From Corallococcus sp. NCRR (GTDB lineage: Bacteria > Myxococcota > Myxococcia > Myxococcales > Myxococcaceae), in the NCBI RefSeq assembly GCF_026965535.1, contig NZ_CP114039.1, positions 620,001 to 684,000 on the forward strand: 64,000 nucleotides of DNA, in the 5' to 3' direction. Shown piece after piece: positions 1,051 to 29,665 of the stretch. Every line of letters starts with the position of its first letter. Position 1 is the first letter of the stretch. The notes beneath the pieces were generated by a model that was given only the letters and a program-made list of their open reading frames with translations, was not told where the DNA came from and made no database searches. A program made the translations under genes and the position numbers.

Positions 1051-2487
1051 TCAGCGGTTGTAGACGGCCACGCGCAGCTGGGAGCGGATCTCCATGAGGA
1101 CATCCCGGGGGGCCTTCCCGGCCTTGAGCATCTCCTCCGCGATCCGCCTCCACGCCTCCATCTCACGGGGCTTGGGCGGACGGTAGGCGCCTTCGAGCAC
1201 GTCCTTGAACGCCATGTTGACGATGCCGTCCGGGCTGGGCGTCTTGCCGAAGTCCTTCTCCGAGCGGAGCTTCTCGGAGATGGCGTACATGATGGCCTGG
1301 GAGGCGGAGCCCCCCTTCGCCATCTCCTGCGCCAGCTTCGAGTACTCCGCGTACTCGGCCGGGGTGGCCGTGCGGTTCTCCTTCTCGAAGACGCGCGCGA
1401 AGGCCTTGTCGATGGCGGCCTTGATGGCCTTGGGGTCCTCCGGCTTGCCGCCGTAGTCCTTGATCTGCCGGACCTTCTCCGCGACGGCGAACATGATGTC
1501 CTTGGGGGCGGCGCCCTTCTCCGCGAGCTCCTTGGCCATGGCCCGGTACTCGGCCTTCTCAGCCTCGGTCGTGGGACGCGACTCGTTGTTGTAGACGTAC
1601 TTGTAGGCCTGGTCGATGACGTCGTCGATGACCTTCGGCGAGTTGACCGGCGCACCACCCGTGCTCTGGCGGGCCCGCATCTTCTCCGCGACGGCGAACA
1701 TGATGTCCTTGGAGCTGGAGCCGGACTTCGCCATGTCCTCGGCCATCTTCGTGAACTCCGCGTACTCCGCGGCGTTGGGCTTGCGCGAGCCTTCGAAGAC
1801 CCGATCAAAGCCTTTCTCGATGGCGGACCGGATGACCGCGGGTTCGCCCGGCTTGCCGCCCCAGTCCTTGACCTGCCGGATCTTCTCCGACAGGCCGTAA
1901 AGGAGGTCCTTGCCGCCAAGGCCCTTGTCCGAGAGCTCCCGGGCCAGCTCCCGGAACGCGGCCTTCTCCGACTCGGAGGTGGGACGCGCGTCGTCAAAGT
2001 AGACGTACTTGTAGGCCTGGTCGATGACGGCATCGAGCTCCGCCGCGGTCTTGGGCTTGCTCGGTCCGGTCACCTTCTCGCGCAGCTTCGCGACGAGCGC
2101 GTTTTCAATCTCCTTCACGTCACAGCAGCCCTCATTGCGCATCTTCTGGGCGAGCGCGTACAGCTCATTGCGCTCGGTCGGGCTCGGCAAAGGGATGTTC
2201 TCACCCGCCGCGCGCCGGACGGCGTCATTGACGGCCGTGTCCAACCGCTCGTTGCGGGGCGGGTTCATGGAGGGAGGGAGCAGGTCGTAGGCCGGCGGCG
2301 TCTGCTGGGGCGTGGCCGCGGAGAACGCCGCCGGCGCGGTGCTGTTCGTGGACGCCGCTGGCGTGGTCACGGATGCCTTCAGGGCCGCCAGCAATAGCAG
2401 CTCCGAAGAAGATGCCGGCCGCGTCGTCGTCTGCGCCGTCTGGGCTTTCACTGGAGATGGGGTGGCAGGCTTCTGACCGACCTTCAT
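1051..2487 (-). CDS. Modular protein with six ~67-residue helical repeats
   Basis: Not a family I recognise with certainty. The protein has 478 residues from the ATG at 2487; GAGGA sits six bases upstream of it, whereas for the ATG two codons earlier (2493) the same GAGGA would touch the start. Residues 1-80 are Pro/Ser/Thr/Gln/Ala-rich and probably disordered, with no convincing signal peptide. From about residue 80 to the end come six repeats of roughly 67 residues: an acidic/aromatic helix (IDQAYKYVY or IDKAFARVF), a Pro-Thr turn, a charged helix with EYxxLAxEMAK, then KDIMFAVAEKVRQ and a GGKP linker. Units 2 and 4, and units 3 and 5, resemble each other most, so a two-unit cassette was probably duplicated. 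The spacing recalls DUF4214-like repeats, but that link is weak. Divergent from the gene at 3093. Confidence 0.8.
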   Translation of the reverse strand: MKVGQKPATPSPVKAQTAQTTTRPASSSELLLLAALKASVTTPAASTNSTAPAAFSAATPQQTPPAYDLLPPSMNPPRNERLDTAVNDAVRRAAGENIPLPSPTERNELYALAQKMRNEGCCDVKEIENALVAKLREKVTGPSKPKTAAELDAVIDQAYKYVYFDDARPTSESEKAAFRELARELSDKGLGGKDLLYGLSEKIRQVKDWGGKPGEPAVIRSAIEKGFDRVFEGSRKPNAAEYAEFTKMAEDMAKSGSSSKDIMFAVAEKMRARQSTGGAPVNSPKVIDDVIDQAYKYVYNNESRPTTEAEKAEYRAMAKELAEKGAAPKDIMFAVAEKVRQIKDYGGKPEDPKAIKAAIDKAFARVFEKENRTATPAEYAEYSKLAQEMAKGGSASQAIMYAISEKLRSEKDFGKTPSPDGIVNMAFKDVLEGAYRPPKPREMEAWRRIAEEMLKAGKAPRDVLMEIRSQLRVAVYNR

Positions 2488-2493
2488 GGGCAT

Positions 2494-3092
2494 TCCTCGG
2501 GAAAGAAATACGGTGCTCGGGCTTTACTGATTATGAGACTGAATCCGGCAAAGTTGCCCAAATCCGCATGTCGTGGATACCCCTTAGCACCTGGCGATGT
2601 CTGTCGTTGACGGAAACCCTGTCGGAACAGATGGGGATATGACTGCCAGGCCACACTGCGTGCAGGCAGGCCCGCGCGGCGGCTCTCTTCGACGCCCCGG
2701 CTCCACGCCCCCTCCACCCTGTAACCGGACTCCGCCCTGCCGCGTATTCCTCTTCGCGCCACCCGGAAGGGGCTGGAGGCACTCTCAAAGGCCGAGAGTC
2801 GCCCGCCCTTCCCAACATTCCGCCTGTGAGGTTTGTCCGTTCAGGACAGCGCCCGGGCGGAACCCGATGCCCTCCTCTCTCCCTCGTGATTTGACGCGAC
2901 GCTCCACTCTCCGAGCGTCGACATGGAAACATCCCCACCGAAATGTAATCAACCATCCCACTTCACCGGAATCCGACCAGGAATTTCTTACAAAGTGATC
3001 GAGGTGCGGAAACTTCCGGACGGGGTTGGGGAGAATGGGAAAAAACGGTCGCCGTTCCGGGCGCCGTTCCCATCGAACTCCGGAGTCCGACC
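2494..3092. promoter_or_regulatory. Divergent intergenic region, promoter location inferred
   Basis: This gap of about 600 bases separates two divergent genes whose products both begin with Pro/Thr/Gln-rich low-complexity leaders. It must hold at least two promoters. The stretch 2910-3000 is less GC-rich than its surroundings. The nonamer CGCCGTTCC occurs twice at about 3050-3070, just before the right-hand gene. I see no clear sigma-70 or sigma-54 consensus, and open frames here have no coding character. Confidence 0.4.
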
Positions 3093-4049
3093 ATGACCCT
3101 GCCCATCGGCTACCGCCCGCTTCCGCCGCCCCCGCCGCCCCCGAAGCCTGTCGCGCCGCCCCCGGCGAAGCCGACGACGACGACGCAGCAGCAGCCCGGG
3201 ACGCAGCCGAGCGTCTCCACGCAGACGCAGGGCAACGTTCAGACGCCCTCGCGCAACGTGCTAAGCGGCGAGTCCAGCTTCGAGGCGGGCGGCTCGCGCG
3301 CCGAGGTCAACGGCACCGGCCCCGGCGGCGTCAACACCAACGCCTATGTCCAGGGCCCGACGTTCAGCGCGGACGCGTCCGTGGACGCGGACATTGGCCT
3401 GTCCGGCATCGACGTGAACGTGCAGGTGGACGTGTCCGCCAACTTGGTGGAAGCGGGCGCCAGCGCCACCAAGACGGTGGACTTCGAGATCGCCGGCGAG
3501 CAGTACTCCGTCGAGCTGGACCTGGCGGCGCTGGGCAAGATTGGCGCCGAGGGCTCCATCGACCTGGACCTGCACGTCGGCACCGACGGCAACCTGTCCC
3601 TCAACGCCGCCGCCTCCGGCTTCGCGGGCGCGCAGGCCAGCCTCACGGGCGGCATCGAGCTGAAGCACGAGGGTGACACCCTGGCCTCCGCCAGCATCAC
3701 CGCCAGCGCCAGCGCCGGCGTGAGCGGCGACGCCCACGCGGACATCGGCTTGGACGGCGGCAACCTGGAGTTCGACGTCGGCGTGGAGGCCACGGCCGGC
3801 CTGGGCCTGGGCGTCGAGGTGGAAGGCTCCGTCAACCCCGGCAACATCCTCAAGGCGGTCGGCGAGACGGCCGCCGCGGCCGGTGGCGAGGTGCTGGAGA
3901 ACATCGCCGAGGGCGCCATCAACGCGGGCGGCGCGGTGGCGGACGCGGCCGGCGACGTGTTCAACGGCGCGGTGGACGTCCTGGGCGACCTGGCCGGCGG
4001 CGTGAAGGACGGGCTCAGCACGGTCGGGGATTGGGTGACCCCCTGGTAG
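3093..4049 (+). CDS. Pro-rich-led, glycine-rich beta-repeat protein with hydrophobic Gly/Ala-zipper tail
   Basis: Unrecognised protein of 318 residues; the start is supported by GGAG seven bases before the ATG. Three regions are visible. Residues 1-60 are dominated by Pro, then Thr/Gln (nine Pro in a row broken by Lys), with no signal peptide. Residues 60-250 alternate hydrophobic and polar residues with many Gly, Ser, Ala and Asp (for example VNVQVDVSAN and ASITASASAG), suggesting an extended beta-sheet or beta-helix. Residues 250-310 form an Ala/Gly-rich amphipathic helix region with small-xxx-small spacing, ending in DWVTPW. A disordered basic leader plus a small-residue zipper tail is what secreted effectors or membrane-inserting proteins often show, but no function can be assigned. 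Followed 50 bases later by a TPR gene in the same direction. Confidence 0.75.
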   Translation: MTLPIGYRPLPPPPPPPKPVAPPPAKPTTTTQQQPGTQPSVSTQTQGNVQTPSRNVLSGESSFEAGGSRAEVNGTGPGGVNTNAYVQGPTFSADASVDADIGLSGIDVNVQVDVSANLVEAGASATKTVDFEIAGEQYSVELDLAALGKIGAEGSIDLDLHVGTDGNLSLNAAASGFAGAQASLTGGIELKHEGDTLASASITASASAGVSGDAHADIGLDGGNLEFDVGVEATAGLGLGVEVEGSVNPGNILKAVGETAAAAGGEVLENIAEGAINAGGAVADAAGDVFNGAVDVLGDLAGGVKDGLSTVGDWVTPW

Positions 4050-5994: not shown

Positions 5995-7977
5995 ATGGCA
6001 AGCAAGACGAAGGAAGACTGCAACTGCGCTGACGTGGCCGATGCGGCCGACGGATGCGTCAAGGTCCAGGTCCACGTGGACCTGAAGAAGAAGACGCTGG
6101 ATGTGAACATGGAGTCGGGGTGCACGCAGCCCGTCGGCGCGGGTCAGGCCCCGGCCCCCACGGCGACCCAGCCGCTGGCCGCCTGGAACAGGCAGAGCGG
6201 AGGTGACACCTTCCAGGTCATCTTCAACGGGAAGGTCTACGAGAACGCCTGGTGGGTCGAGGCGATTCACTGCCCTGGCCAGGTGGATGATCCGAACACC
6301 AACCCGTGGCGCTACAAGCGGGACGCCACGCAGCCGGAGATGGATGAGCTCGGCAACCCGACCGATTGCAACAACCCCATCCCCGAGCCGGGCGACGCCC
6401 TGACCCGCGACGACGCGCAGACCCTGGCCGGTTACAAGAAGGTGGGTTACGAGCGCGACGGCTCCGGCACGAGCAAGCTGTCGTACTCGTCGGCCCGGGT
6501 GGCCAAGCCCGTCTACAACCAGTACGCCCAGGCCAGCACGAAGCCGAAGGTGTCGGCCTACATCACCGACTGGTGCCAGTACGACGGCCGCCTGGACAAG
6601 CCCGCGGACCAGCTCGAGGCCAAGGACTACGGCCGCGGCTTCGACCTGCTGAACATCCCGGTGACGGCCTACGACCGGCTCATCTTCAGCTTCATGGGCG
6701 TCTACAAGCAGGCGCGCAACCCGGAGACGAAGCCCGGGGACAAGGACATCGCGGACAGCATCATCGCGCACGCGGAAGGCGCGGGCTTTGGCCAGCTGGG
6801 CCACGTGACGCTCGTGGACGCGTGGGGTGACCTGGCGTCGTACCGCAACTGCGGCCTCACCGCCGGCCACTACGACGTGACGCCGACGAACTGGCTGAAC
6901 TACTACACCGAGTCGCAGGTGGCGGGCCTGCTCGGCGGTCTGCGCGAGCTGAAGAAGAAGGCCGACGCGGCGAACCACCCGCTGGACCTGGCGTTCTCCA
7001 TTGGCGGCTGGTCCATGTCCGCCTACTTCTCCCCGATGGCGGCCGACCCCGCGCAGCGCAAGGTCTTCATCGACAGCGTCATCGACATCTTCACCCGCTT
7101 CCCCATGTTCTCCGCGGTGGACATCGACTGGGAGTACCCGGGCGGCGGCGGCCTGGACTTCAACCCGGTGCTCCCCGAGGACGGCGCGAACTTCGCCCTC
7201 CTCATCGAGGAGCTGCGCGCCCGCCTGGACGCCCTGCCGGCCCTGCCCGGGGGCAAGAAGCGGGAGATCACCATCGCGGCGGCGTGCGACGTGGAGAAGC
7301 TGAAGCGGGCCAACATCCCGGAGTTGATCCGCAAGGGCCTCAACAACGTCTACCTGATGGCGTACGACTTCTTCGGCTTCTCCTGGGCGAACGAGCTCGC
7401 GCACCACACCAACCTCCACGCGTCCCCGGGCCGGCCCTTCTCCGCCGAAGCCGCGGTGAAGTACCTGCTGGAGTCGGGGGTGCCCTCCACGGCGCTCCAC
7501 ATGGGCTACGCCAACTACGGCCGGGCCGCGGCGCAGGCCAACCCGGACACCGGCACGCACAACAAGCAGGGCAGTCCGCTGGGCTCCTTCGAGGCGGGCG
7601 CGGTGGAGTTCTTCGACTCCATCTTCAACCACATCGACTTCACGAAGAGCCCGCCGGAGGGCAAGCACGGCTTCACGCTGTACACCGACCCGACGCCCAA
7701 CGCGGACTACCTGTACAGCAGCACCATGCAGCACTTCATCTCGCTGGACACGCCGCGCACGGTGAAGGCCAAGGCGGAGTTCGCCCTCGAGCACCAGCTG
7801 GGCGGCATGTTCTCCTGGTCCGCGGACCAGGATGACGGCCTGCTCTGCAACGCCGCGCGCGAGGGCCTGGGCTACTCGCTCACGGCCAACGGCAAGACGT
7901 TCGACATGGCGCCCACCTACAAGCCCGGCGCGACCCGGCCGCTGGGCCCGACGGGCAAGGGCAAGGGTGTGAAGTAG
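5995..7977 (+). CDS. Glycoside hydrolase family 18 (chitinase-like)
   Basis: Hydrolase of chitin or related beta-1,4-GlcNAc polymers. The start at 5995 is chosen because GGGGAG lies nine bases upstream; product 660 residues. Residues 1-60 are Cys-containing and charged, without a signal peptide. Residues around 65-110 (YENAWWVEAIHCPG) resemble a small carbohydrate-binding module of the chitin-binding type 3 kind. The TIM barrel follows, with SIGGWSMS (strand 3) and the catalytic motif on strand 4 reading S373-A-V-D376-I-D378-W-E380-Y-P. The acid Glu and two Asp are kept, but the first Asp of the usual DxxDxDxE is Ser. MAYDFFGFSW is the strand 6 motif and FSWSADQDD the C-terminal Trp strand. 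Absence of a secretion signal suggests a specialised export route or release by lysis, as with chitinases that ride on toxin complexes; this is inference. Terminator-like hairpin follows. Confidence 0.9.
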   Translation: MASKTKEDCNCADVADAADGCVKVQVHVDLKKKTLDVNMESGCTQPVGAGQAPAPTATQPLAAWNRQSGGDTFQVIFNGKVYENAWWVEAIHCPGQVDDPNTNPWRYKRDATQPEMDELGNPTDCNNPIPEPGDALTRDDAQTLAGYKKVGYERDGSGTSKLSYSSARVAKPVYNQYAQASTKPKVSAYITDWCQYDGRLDKPADQLEAKDYGRGFDLLNIPVTAYDRLIFSFMGVYKQARNPETKPGDKDIADSIIAHAEGAGFGQLGHVTLVDAWGDLASYRNCGLTAGHYDVTPTNWLNYYTESQVAGLLGGLRELKKKADAANHPLDLAFSIGGWSMSAYFSPMAADPAQRKVFIDSVIDIFTRFPMFSAVDIDWEYPGGGGLDFNPVLPEDGANFALLIEELRARLDALPALPGGKKREITIAAACDVEKLKRANIPELIRKGLNNVYLMAYDFFGFSWANELAHHTNLHASPGRPFSAEAAVKYLLESGVPSTALHMGYANYGRAAAQANPDTGTHNKQGSPLGSFEAGAVEFFDSIFNHIDFTKSPPEGKHGFTLYTDPTPNADYLYSSTMQHFISLDTPRTVKAKAEFALEHQLGGMFSWSADQDDGLLCNAAREGLGYSLTANGKTFDMAPTYKPGATRPLGPTGKGKGVK

Positions 7978-8259: not shown

Positions 8260-9063
8260 ATGAAGATCTCCGGTCGCGGCTCCTCCAACGCCATCCGCCG
8301 TCCCCCCGCGCAGGACCTCCCGTCCTCCAAGCCGAGCACGCCCAAGCCGAGCACGCCCAACGCGCCCCAGAAGCCGAACTCGCCCAACACCACGCTGAAG
8401 CCGGACACCAAGCCGAACTCGCCCAACGCGCCCCAGAAGCCGGACGGCAAGCCGAACTCGCCCAACGCGCCCCAGAAGCCGGACTCCCGGTTCTCGAAGA
8501 CCGACCTCTTCAACTCCGCCATGCAGGTGCCGGATGCCCTGCTCTCCACGAGCTCGCTGATCAACGGCCTCCAGGGTCCGGGCGGAATGCCCCCCTCGCC
8601 CGCGATGCTCGACGGCCTCCAGGGTCCGGGCGGAATGCCCCCCTCGCCCGCGATGCTCGACGGCCTCCAGGGTCCGGGCGGAATGCCGCCCTCGCCCGCG
8701 ATGCTCGACGGCCTCCAGGGTCCGGGCGGAATGCCCCCGCCCTCGATGATCGACGGCCTCCAGGGTCCGGGCGCCATGTCTTCCTCGCCGGTGATGCAGT
8801 CGCTCCAGACGGACGCCTTCTCCCCGGCCGGCTCCAGCAAGACCGAGAGCATCGGCAAGCTGCTGGAGGGCATCACCTCGGTGATCAGCAGCATCACGGA
8901 GCTGGTGCAAGCCGCGACCCAGGGCGTGCAGGCGGTCTCCCAGGGCGTGCAAGGCGTGGCCGGTGCCGTTGGCACTGCGGGCGGCTCGCTGCTCGGTGGC
9001 GCGCTCGGTCAGGCCAACCCGGACCCGACCGCCGGCATGAATCAGGCCCCCACCATCGAGTAG
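8260..9063 (+). CDS. Pro/Ser/Thr-rich protein with 16-residue tandem repeats and Gly/Ala-zipper C-terminus
   Basis: Unrecognised; 267 residues from the ATG at 8260 (the frame is open upstream, but this start gives a leader MKISGRGS like those of nearby proteins; no strong ribosome site is seen). Residues 20-80 are built from [16 protein letters not shown] and similar units. Residues about 101-173 are five copies of a 16-residue unit with core [12 protein letters not shown], the last two shortened. The tail (about 195-250) is an amphipathic or hydrophobic helix region with many Gly/Ala/Val/Gln ([19 protein letters not shown]). No signal peptide. The layout of disordered repeat-rich front and small-residue hydrophobic tail matches the protein at 3093, suggesting related roles at the cell surface or in secretion; this is inference. 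A terminator lies 33 bases downstream. Confidence 0.75.
8560..8778 (+). repeat. 48-bp in-frame tandem repeat
   Basis: Four and a half head-to-tail copies of a 48-bp unit coding for (L/I)(D/N)[14 protein letters not shown] at 8560, 8608, 8656, 8704 (45 bp) and 8749 (partial). The first three copies differ at very few positions, including one silent C-to-G change, so copy number is likely to vary between strains. Confidence 0.95.
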
Positions 9064-27361: not shown

Positions 27362-28484
27362 CTAGTCCTCGTCCCGGATGAAGTCCTCCGGTTGGTAGTG
27401 GAAGGTGTGCCGGGCCTTGGCGGTGGTGAAGGCCCAGCGAATGGGAACGCGGTGGCGGTTGGCATCGCGTTCCCAGGCGCGAGTCCTGTCGCGCAGGGTC
27501 TCCACGGAAGCGATGCGCTGGTGTCCCAGGCATTGACGCGAGACGAGGCTCACCTCGATTTCAGCCTGATTGAGCCAGCTGCCGTGCACAGGCGTGTAGT
27601 GCACGCAGAAGCGACTCCACAGGCGCAGGCCCTGCTTCCATCCAAAGCGACGTGTCAGCGAGAAACGTGTGTGGATGTTGAGGTTGTCCAGCACGAGGTG
27701 AATCTTTCGGGCGTTGGGGTAGCGGCGCGCCAGGTCCCGCACCGCTTCCGCGAAATCAGCGGCCTTGCGGCAGCGCGTCGCCTTGACGAAGTGGCGCCCT
27801 GTCTGCGGCTCCACCGCGCAGAAGAGATTGGCGGTGCCACACCGGACATATTCGAAGTCACGCCGAGCGACAGCGCCAGGGTGCATGGGCAGCACGTCTC
27901 GCTTGGAGTCCAGCAGTTGTACGGGCCTCTCGTCGAAGCAGACGACGGGCTCACGTCGGCTGAAGGGCTTCTCGTAAAGGGCCAGCACGTCCTCCATGCG
28001 CTGGACGTACTGGGCATCCAGGCTGGGCACGCACCACCTTTTTTTCCCGCCACGGCTTCAAGTCATGCCGCTGCAGGAGCTCGCGCACCGTCTCCATGCC
28101 TACGTGAGGCACGATTCCCCGTCCTACGACTTCACGCACCAGCAGGCTCAGCGTCCACCGGGCATATCCCTCCGGTGGACTGCTGCACACCAGCGCCACG
28201 ACTTGGGAGGCCTGCCCGGGAGTGAAGCGTCGCTGGCGCCCAGGCCGTGGCCTCTCCTGGAGGGCAGCATCAAGGCCTTCGCGCCGGTAGCGCCCTCGCA
28301 CCTGCCGCACCGTCCGCTCCGAGAGGCCCGCAGCTTCTGCAGCGGCCACACCCGTCCAGCCTTCCCCCAGCAACTGCAGGGCCCGTGCTCGCTTCAACAC
28401 CCGCACCGAATGCCGGCCCCGGCGCATCAGCGCGTCCAGCGCCTCCTTCTCCGCCTGCTTCAGCTTCACGCCAGGCTCCTGCAT
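27362..28484 (-). CDS. IS630-family transposase copy 1, two frames joined by +1 shift
   Basis: The first frame (28484-27951, 177 residues) holds the helix-turn-helix region AAEAAGLSERTVRQVRGRYR. The second (28030-27362, 222 residues) holds VVCFDERPVQLL, IHLVLDNLNIHT and SWLNQAEIEVS, so all three catalytic acids are present. The frames meet at WREKK, encoded by a run of seven A (28040-28046, T on the plus strand); joining them needs +1 (or -2). The stop codon TAG is completed by the TA target outside the element. Confidence 0.88.
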
Positions 28485-28543
28485 GTCGACCCTCCTACTT
28501 GGGCCAACATGCAGCCTCGGCAGACTTCATCCGGGACGAGGAC
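27365..28543 (-). mobile_element. IS630-type element B (dimer copy 1)
   Basis: A 1179-bp element with perfect 21-bp ends (GTCCTCGTCCCGGATGAAGTC and complement), flanked by TA, the target duplicated by IS630/Tc1 elements. It sits inside the CTAG that bordered IS701 element C. Confidence 0.95.
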
Positions 28544-29665
28544 TAGTCCTCGTCCCGGATGAAGTCCTCCGGTTGGTAGTGGAAGGTGTGCCGGGCCTTG
28601 GCGGTGGTGAAGGCCCAGCGAATGGGAACGCGGTGGCGGTTGGCATCGCGTTCCCAGGCGCGAGTCCTGTCGCGCAGGGTCTCCACGGAAGCGATGCGCT
28701 GGTGTCCCAGGCATTGACGCGAGACGAGGCTCACCTCGATTTCAGCCTGATTGAGCCAGCTGCCGTGCACAGGCGTGTAGTGCACGCAGAAGCGACTCCA
28801 CAGGCGCAGGCCCTGCTTCCATCCAAAGCGACGTGTCAGCGAGAAACGTGTGTGGATGTTGAGGTTGTCCAGCACGAGGTGAATCTTTCGGGCGTTGGGG
28901 TAGCGGCGCGCCAGGTCCCGCACCGCTTCCGCGAAATCAGCGGCCTTGCGGCAGCGCGTCGCCTTGACGAAGTGGCGCCCTGTCTGCGGCTCCACCGCGC
29001 AGAAGAGATTGGCGGTGCCACACCGGACATATTCGAAGTCACGCCGAGCGACAGCGCCAGGGTGCATGGGCAGCACGTCTCGCTTGGAGTCCAGCAGTTG
29101 TACGGGCCTCTCGTCGAAGCAGACGACGGGCTCACGTCGGCTGAAGGGCTTCTCGTAAAGGGCCAGCACGTCCTCCATGCGCTGGACGTACTGGGCATCC
29201 AGGCTGGGCACGCACCACCTTTTTTTCCCGCCACGGCTTCAAGTCATGCCGCTGCAGGAGCTCGCGCACCGTCTCCATGCCTACGTGAGGCACGATTCCC
29301 CGTCCTACGACTTCACGCACCAGCAGGCTCAGCGTCCACCGGGCATATCCCTCCGGTGGACTGCTGCACACCAGCGCCACGACTTGGGAGGCCTGCCCGG
29401 GAGTGAAGCGTCGCTGGCGCCCAGGCCGTGGCCTCTCCTGGAGGGCAGCATCAAGGCCTTCGCGCCGGTAGCGCCCTCGCACCTGCCGCACCGTCCGCTC
29501 CGAGAGGCCCGCAGCTTCTGCAGCGGCCACACCCGTCCAGCCTTCCCCCAGCAACTGCAGGGCCCGTGCTCGCTTCAACACCCGCACCGAATGCCGGCCC
29601 CGGCGCATCAGCGCGTCCAGCGCCTCCTTCTCCGCCTGCTTCAGCTTCACGCCAGGCTCCTGCAT
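28543..29665 (-). CDS. IS630-family transposase copy 2, two frames joined by +1 shift
   Basis: Same product as copy 1: first frame 29665-29132, second frame 29211-28543, meeting at the seven-A run at 29221-29227. The sequence appears identical to copy 1, including both frames and the stop formed with the TA target, so both copies are equally likely to be active. Confidence 0.88.

Follow-up and report, generated by a model that had tools for sequence, protein, structure and literature searches.

A six-module helical protein of Corallococcus as a candidate substrate of the needleless type III system of predatory myxobacteria

Prey lysis by Myxococcus xanthus requires a non-flagellar type III secretion system, T3SS*, which is recruited to prey contact and which the cited accounts describe as having no secretin, needle or translocon (PMC12075869, PMC10433427). 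It is described as a non-flagellar type III system that branched off early and has been argued to be incapable of secreting to the outside (PMC3459982), and its effectors were called unknown in a 2023 review (PMC10433427). Proteins with a DUF1521 domain, such as NopE and VIC_001052, are described in the cited text as type III-secreted and self-cleaving at a GDPH site (PMC6506597).

Here we compare with these systems a gene encoding a leader followed by six repeated modules, found in a window (the whole stretch of DNA analysed, 64,000 nucleotides) of the genome of Corallococcus sp. NCRR. This genome holds two SctV-type loci. Pfam recognizes SctN, R, S, T, U, V, Q and an FHA/YscD protein in the locus at 8.92 Mb, which is of the same type (SctN, Q, R, S, T, U, V, FHA/YscD, LcrH-like) as the needleless T3SS* locus of M. 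xanthus (mxan_2434-2464). A locus of this type adjoins the module gene in four other genomes but not in the window, whose gene is separated by about 1.5 Mb from the T3SS* locus of its genome and is not linked to it. DUF1521 genes of the kind that encode NopE1, NopE2 and VIC_001052 (DUF1521/MIIA) neighbour 8 of 40 module loci, whereas the module proteins themselves have no DUF1521 domain and the window's own genome has no match to it (PF07481). Judged from sequence, the window protein is most likely exported as a substrate of the non-flagellar T3SS* of predation, a reading to which we give a little less than an even chance.

The gene, its leader and its modules

The gene lies on the minus strand at 1051..2487, where the first-pass annotation had placed it, and its translation gives 478 amino acids. 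An ATG at 2493 offers an alternative start (ORF 1051-2493, minus strand, 480 amino acids), and the residue numbers used below follow the 480-residue reading. A Shine-Dalgarno-like GAGGA (2494..2498, minus strand) is spaced 6 nt from the ATG at 2487 and 0 nt from that at 2493, so the former, which was also the start implied by the earlier coordinates, is the better choice. GC content by codon position is 0.61/0.46/0.91. The gene is present in a single copy in its 9.79 Mb genome, in which the next three matches have E values of at least 0.35.

A Pro/Ser/Thr-rich leader had been noted ahead of the modules, and both composition and model bear this out. In the stretch proposed to serve as type III export signal and chaperone-binding region (2293..2487, minus strand; rich in S, T, P, Q and A), S, T, P and Q make up 51% of 65 residues, and residues 1-67 have pLDDT values below 50 in the AlphaFold2 model, that is, they are predicted to be disordered. 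No Sec-like start was seen in the window protein, in which the longest hydrophobic run within the first 45 residues is seven residues long and comes after residue 28. By pLDDT, composition and hydrophobic runs, the protein thus has the disordered, S/T/P-rich N terminus without a Sec signal that we looked for in a substrate, and these predicted features make secretion plausible, through a type III system and not through Sec. An LLPPS motif marks the junction between leader and module 1 (2269..2283, minus strand), with L72 and P73 invariant in an alignment of eight rows.

Six modules were recognized on the minus strand by self-comparison, by a hidden Markov model (HMM) and in the structural model: module 1 (residues 82-149; 2047..2250), module 2 (150-217; 1843..2046), module 3 (218-285; 1639..1842), module 4 (286-353; 1435..1638), module 5 (354-420; 1234..1434) and the C-terminal module 6 (421-480; 1054..1233), which ends in LRVAVYNR, with L, R, A and N of this ending invariant in the same alignment. 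The first-pass annotation had described six modules of a constant 67 residues; self-comparison and iterated HMM searches uphold the number, but the period is about 68 and not quite constant, with HMM start spacings of 69, 68, 68, 68 and 64 and a last module of about 60 residues. Its pairing of module 2 with module 4 and of module 3 with module 5 was confirmed, at 52% and 50% protein identity and 76% and 73% DNA identity, respectively. Ungapped self-matching peaks at an offset of 136 with a score of 277, far above the maximum of 47 among 60 shuffles, which supports the duplication of a two-module cassette that had been suggested from the pairing. Module 1 is the weakest of the six (20-30% identity to the others, z 1.8-6.4). 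The AlphaFold2 model, built from the eight-row alignment, has 18 helices, three per module, each module being predicted to form a three-helix bundle, in agreement with the helical nature first assigned to the modules. The full-length model has a mean pLDDT of 74 and a pTM of 0.43, so it does not fix the arrangement of the modules relative to one another; modules 4 and 5 modelled alone reached a mean pLDDT of 90.

The first-pass annotation had also noted a second leader-plus-repeat protein head to head with this one and had taken the arrangement to point to shared biology. The neighbour does exist, at 3093-4049, and has a Pro-rich start followed by Gly/Ala/Asp-rich repeats, and 42 of the 96 genomes of the bacterial family encode relatives that are up to 90% identical. 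The expectation of shared biology did not hold: among the 40 module loci this protein is present at the window's own only, in 21 other genomes that encode both proteins the two are never within 60 kb among the matches listed, and its N terminus does not match the module leader (579 of 1,000 shuffles score as high). Another protein of the window, at 8260-9063, has a Pro/Ser-rich start (MKISGRGSS...), four near-identical 16-residue repeats and a hydrophobic helical end, and its N terminus likewise fails to match the leader (239 of 1,000 shuffles as high). The gene at 5995-7977, which we take to resemble a family 18 chitinase by its DIDWEYP motif, has no obvious Sec start. Two ORFs of equal length with identical first 70 residues (27362-28030 and 28543-29211) lie among transposase-like small ORFs.

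Relatives and named families

The window protein found no usable family in Pfam, NCBIfam, PHROGs or PADLOC, as had been anticipated, and by sequence comparison the module proteins are an unnamed family. A single-protein search found relatives in 28 of the 96 genomes of the window's bacterial family, and a profile search across the order found them in 37 of 145 genomes; all 37 belong to the window's own family and they cover 7 of 46 genera. A search of genome contigs with the window protein as query found no relative, and one with an alignment of the Myxococcus type found eight loci. A record named Comamonas sp. KCTC 72670 (BNCN01000017.1, L083) has a module gene of the Myxococcus type and is probably mislabelled; the same sequence is found in a genome placed in the Myxococcus genus.

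To survey copy number we compared 40 proteins, leaving six fragments (L043, L046, L057, L067, L114 and L116) out of the count. Exactly six modules were found in 30 of 34 complete members, the exceptions being L034 and L035 with seven and L037 and L113 with five; in L113, one 135-residue stretch goes unrecognized. The spacing of modules depends on the clade, with extremes of 64-65 and 76-77 residues. Within each protein of three genomes of one genus (g7), the inner modules share 99-100% of their residues, compared with 76-84% between species, and similar identity within a protein is found in L036 (99%), L112 (97%) and L042 (77% within, 58% between). Modules that are near-identical within proteins and divergent between them indicate that the modules are homogenized while their number stays mostly at six.

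DUF4214 (PF13946), to whose spacing the modules had been loosely likened, is the closest named domain that we found. Both consist of tandem helical modules of similar length with a common pattern, AY..vfgR.P...E...W, but the window protein itself is not matched by PF13946 even at E ≤ 10. Among relatives, 4 of 31 matched PF13946 at E ≤ 0.1, and L039 accumulated 23.3 bits (cut-off 23.2) with no single stretch passing. Such scans are misleading for this family because weak matches add up across near-identical repeats: 143 Pfam families matched some member at E ≤ 0.1, and L036 reached HTH_Tnp_Mu_2 at E 1.3e-17, evidently a spurious match. Since spurious hits in the same scans are stronger, the L039 sum is weak evidence, and we based the DUF4214 link on profile-profile comparison instead.

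We used hhalign to align 225 modules of the family with a set of DUF4214 modules drawn from the same bacterial family (30 loci tried, four of them left out for a wrong frame). The probability was 84.4% against all DUF4214 modules collected, 90.9% against those of the L127 type and 79.7% against the remainder, compared with at most 4.9% for 100 column shuffles, 0.1% for the reversed profile and at most 0.7% for five unrelated families. When subgroups were compared with the two DUF4214 subsets, the signal came from the type III-linked Corallococcus type (93/91%) and L037 (83/65%), with lower values for the Myxococcus type (21/41%), genus g7 (26/29%) and L034-L036 (1/4%), and with 8/32% for the window protein's own six modules. 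This spread means that remote homology to DUF4214 holds for the family and not for the window protein alone, and the family's modules taken together are supported as remote homologues by these profiles. The original likening to DUF4214 therefore stands as remote homology at the level of the family (80-91%, controls ≤ 4.9%) and not for the modules of the window alone (8-32%).

The window's own genome encodes a DUF4214 repeat protein near 8.788 Mb (L127 679-2265) with five modules of similar pattern and an N terminus that resembles a Sec signal by eye, and close relatives of it are found in L155 and L156. In other genera, several DUF4214 proteins (L137, L144, L145, L151 and others) begin with a part that is not of the Sec type and carries a D-x-F-E motif ahead of the domain, and the leaders of some module proteins hold an F-containing motif similar to it.

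Other named families and folds gave weaker matches. The phycobilisome linker family PF00427 scored 14.6 bits against the window protein (E 0.034), short of its cut-off of 28.7, and the weak local likeness extends to fold-search matches with 5y6p (E 0.21), 2l06 (Z 3.9) and 3ohw (Z 3.2); these are under every cut-off, with nothing beyond a common helical arrangement. A match of the family profile to ribosome recycling factor in a PDB sequence search (E 0.0016), together with two weaker matches, was judged to be due to chance. Fold searches of the PDB with the full-length and two-module models returned nothing at E ≤ 0.001, and the best Z scores, 6.1 and 5.3, are inside the background that the tool states for helical models.

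Type III neighbourhoods and the leader profile

We examined 40 module loci, 39 from other genomes and the window's own, four of the stretches being shorter than 15 kb at contig ends, with gene calls and starts taken from a codon-usage caller, not from a standard gene finder. Eight loci, which fall in three lineages only, hold both a DUF1521 (NopE-like) gene, confirmed by PF07481 in all eight genomes, and a SycD/LcrH-like gene; the GDPH cleavage site is present in the DUF1521 proteins inspected. Four of these eight also hold SctV and an FHA/YscD (SctD) protein: L037 in Myxococcus, and L053, L065 and L066 in genus g7. In L037, SctV scored 817 bits (NCBIfam cut-off 692) and SctU 385 bits (cut-off 358), and two TPR proteins had SycD/LcrH as their best NCBIfam match at 61.5 and 69.6 bits (cut-off 104.8, not reached). 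In the loci L039, L040, L041 and L044 of four Corallococcus species, the module gene is followed by a DUF1521 gene and a chaperone gene on one strand, and within the fetched stretch these trios are away from the main T3SS locus.

A helical protein of 69-77 amino acids is encoded inside T3SS* loci by identical genes in tandem, with two to five of them in several genomes (L106 4919-6018 in the window's own genome; also L065, L066, L053, L109, L117 and L118). The T3SS needle family PF09392 was its only or best weak Pfam match in two of six cases tested (E 0.006 in L117 and 0.14 in L106, both over the full length and under the cut-off), and this protein could possibly be a cryptic needle or rod subunit.

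We searched the N termini of 979 neighbourhood genes with an HMM of the leader, for which only the first 28 residues of 14 module proteins had been used. Its three best non-module hits (E 0.006, 0.035 and 0.077) were small genes of 108-151 amino acids between SctU and SctV in three T3SS loci, followed by a small gene adjoining the module gene in L113 and then by the DUF1521 gene of L037. As 76 of 785 distinct genes lie strictly between SctU and SctV, the chance of three out of three would be 0.001, but these hits come from the same locus slot and are not independent. A small, variable gene with an S/T-rich leader was seen between SctU and SctV at L110 9666-10040, L109 14367-14693, L117 6208-6663 and L106 4222-4737, and some of the small SctU-SctV proteins have an AWQ motif after the leader.

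The profile was then applied to a held-out set of 338 genes from 20 further T3SS regions and 205 genes from 20 control regions of the same genomes. The seven best-scoring genes all lay in T3SS regions; scores of at least 6 bits were reached by 7 of 338 genes in T3SS regions and none of 205 in control regions (Fisher P = 0.035), scores of at least 10 bits by four versus none (P = 0.15) and scores of at least 5 bits by 10 of 338 versus 1 of 205 (P = 0.040). Two DUF1521 proteins of genus g3, L162 and L163, were the second and fourth best held-out hits. When leaders were shuffled, the real score was reached by 0-2 of 1,000 shuffles for seven hits and by 4 and 18 of 1,000 for two more, for hits that had been picked as best beforehand and with the S/T/P-rich composition contributing to the match. 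That so few shuffles reach the real score suggests that the order of residues counts in the leader match, not composition alone. A reciprocal profile of the leaders from T3SS loci placed several module proteins above nearly all unrelated genes, weakly (E of at least 0.2), and scored the window protein from an internal start only, not from its true start. On the window's own genome, the leader profile gave the window protein as its sole convincing match and did not recover the small gene of the own T3SS locus. Seven other matches in this genome (E 0.23 to 9.6), four of which were examined, were unconvincing.

Proposed export by T3SS* and its alternatives

If the favoured reading of export by T3SS* is right, the export signal would reside in the leader of about 67 residues, which in some relatives would also bind the SycD-like chaperone whose gene is adjacent. 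The protein would leave the cell in unfolded form, leader first, and would then fold into a string of six DUF4214-related three-helix bundles that may act as a scaffold or binding rod at the contact between predator and prey. We infer export by T3SS* from the gene neighbourhood and the leader match; that the protein binds the chaperone, lies outside the cell and serves as a scaffold there are further inferences. Against export by T3SS* stand the distance of the window gene from the T3SS* locus, the absence of DUF1521 from its genome, a leader match that is weak for each single gene, and the published argument that T3SS* does not secrete to the outside (PMC3459982).

A rather unlikely reading, but the one that survives best beside it, is that the protein is a secreted or surface scaffold that leaves the cell by another route, such as Kil/Tad, vesicles or non-classical export, with T3SS genes as occasional neighbours. 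This would fit the 32 of 40 module loci, including the window's and both of the M. xanthus type, that have no T3SS, DUF1521 or SycD-like gene nearby, and DUF4214 repeat proteins can be of the Sec type, as the N terminus of L127 679-2265 suggests, which by eye resembles a signal peptide. The full-length model also matches the N-terminal, lipopolysaccharide-binding domain of the S-layer protein RsaA (6z7p, Z 5.9 over 58 aligned residues; 6t72, Z 5.9 over 132 residues at an rmsd of 13.2). However, these scores are below the level deemed meaningful and tied with those of unrelated helical proteins (best 6.1), and RsaA is absent among the matches listed for the two-module model. The window protein, moreover, shows no Sec-like start, and the module leader appears to match those of DUF1521 proteins and small T3SS-locus proteins beyond mere composition.

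It is improbable that the module protein functions in stress, in spores or in the matrix of myxobacteria and has no part in secretion. The spore proteins MspA-C (PMC2875238) were considered as possible members of the family. Many members are stand-alone genes, and one Myxococcus type adjoins a chemosensory operon, which we take to be dif, but such a role would leave both the disordered leader and the repeated linkage to DUF1521 and SycD-like genes unexplained. We consider it quite improbable, too, that the protein stays in the cytoplasm as an accessory of T3SS*, a sorting platform or chaperone-like scaffold. The module gene does stand beside SctV in four loci, and a count of six modules, as seen in 30 of 34 complete members, might correspond to a six-fold structure. 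Against this, module proteins are patchy (28 of 96 genomes) and an SctV-type gene is present in 94 of 96 genomes of the family, which argues that the module protein is no core part of T3SS*; its leader also appears similar to that of DUF1521 proteins, a group secreted in other organisms.

Rulers of the SctP/YscP type are exported by their own type III system, and the gene order N-O-P-Q usually puts SctP between the SctN and SctQ sides. That the module protein sets needle or pilus length by its repeat number is very improbable despite its helical repeats, nearly fixed copy number and leader-type N terminus, because in the T3SS locus of the window's genome this place is taken by a different gene, of 285 amino acids (L106 13349-14206), and many T3SS* genomes have no module gene, and no ruler or T3S4-type (substrate-switch) Pfam family matched the window protein at E ≤ 10.

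Extending the favoured reading of T3SS* export to the neighbours, we tentatively suggest that the six-module proteins, the DUF1521 proteins and the product of the small SctU-SctV gene may together be the substrate set of an ancestral-type needleless type III system, with one common S/T/P-rich N-terminal export leader (M-x-x-K-[IV]-G-x-[RN]-x-P...). The rod would then be a dedicated part that is delivered to, or acts at, the contact site, and its six modules would be held against continual homogenization. A family that can be recognized by its leader and its neighbours would provide concrete candidates for T3SS* effectors, and a module number that stays near six despite strong homogenization would offer a clean case for asking what fixes the number of repeats.
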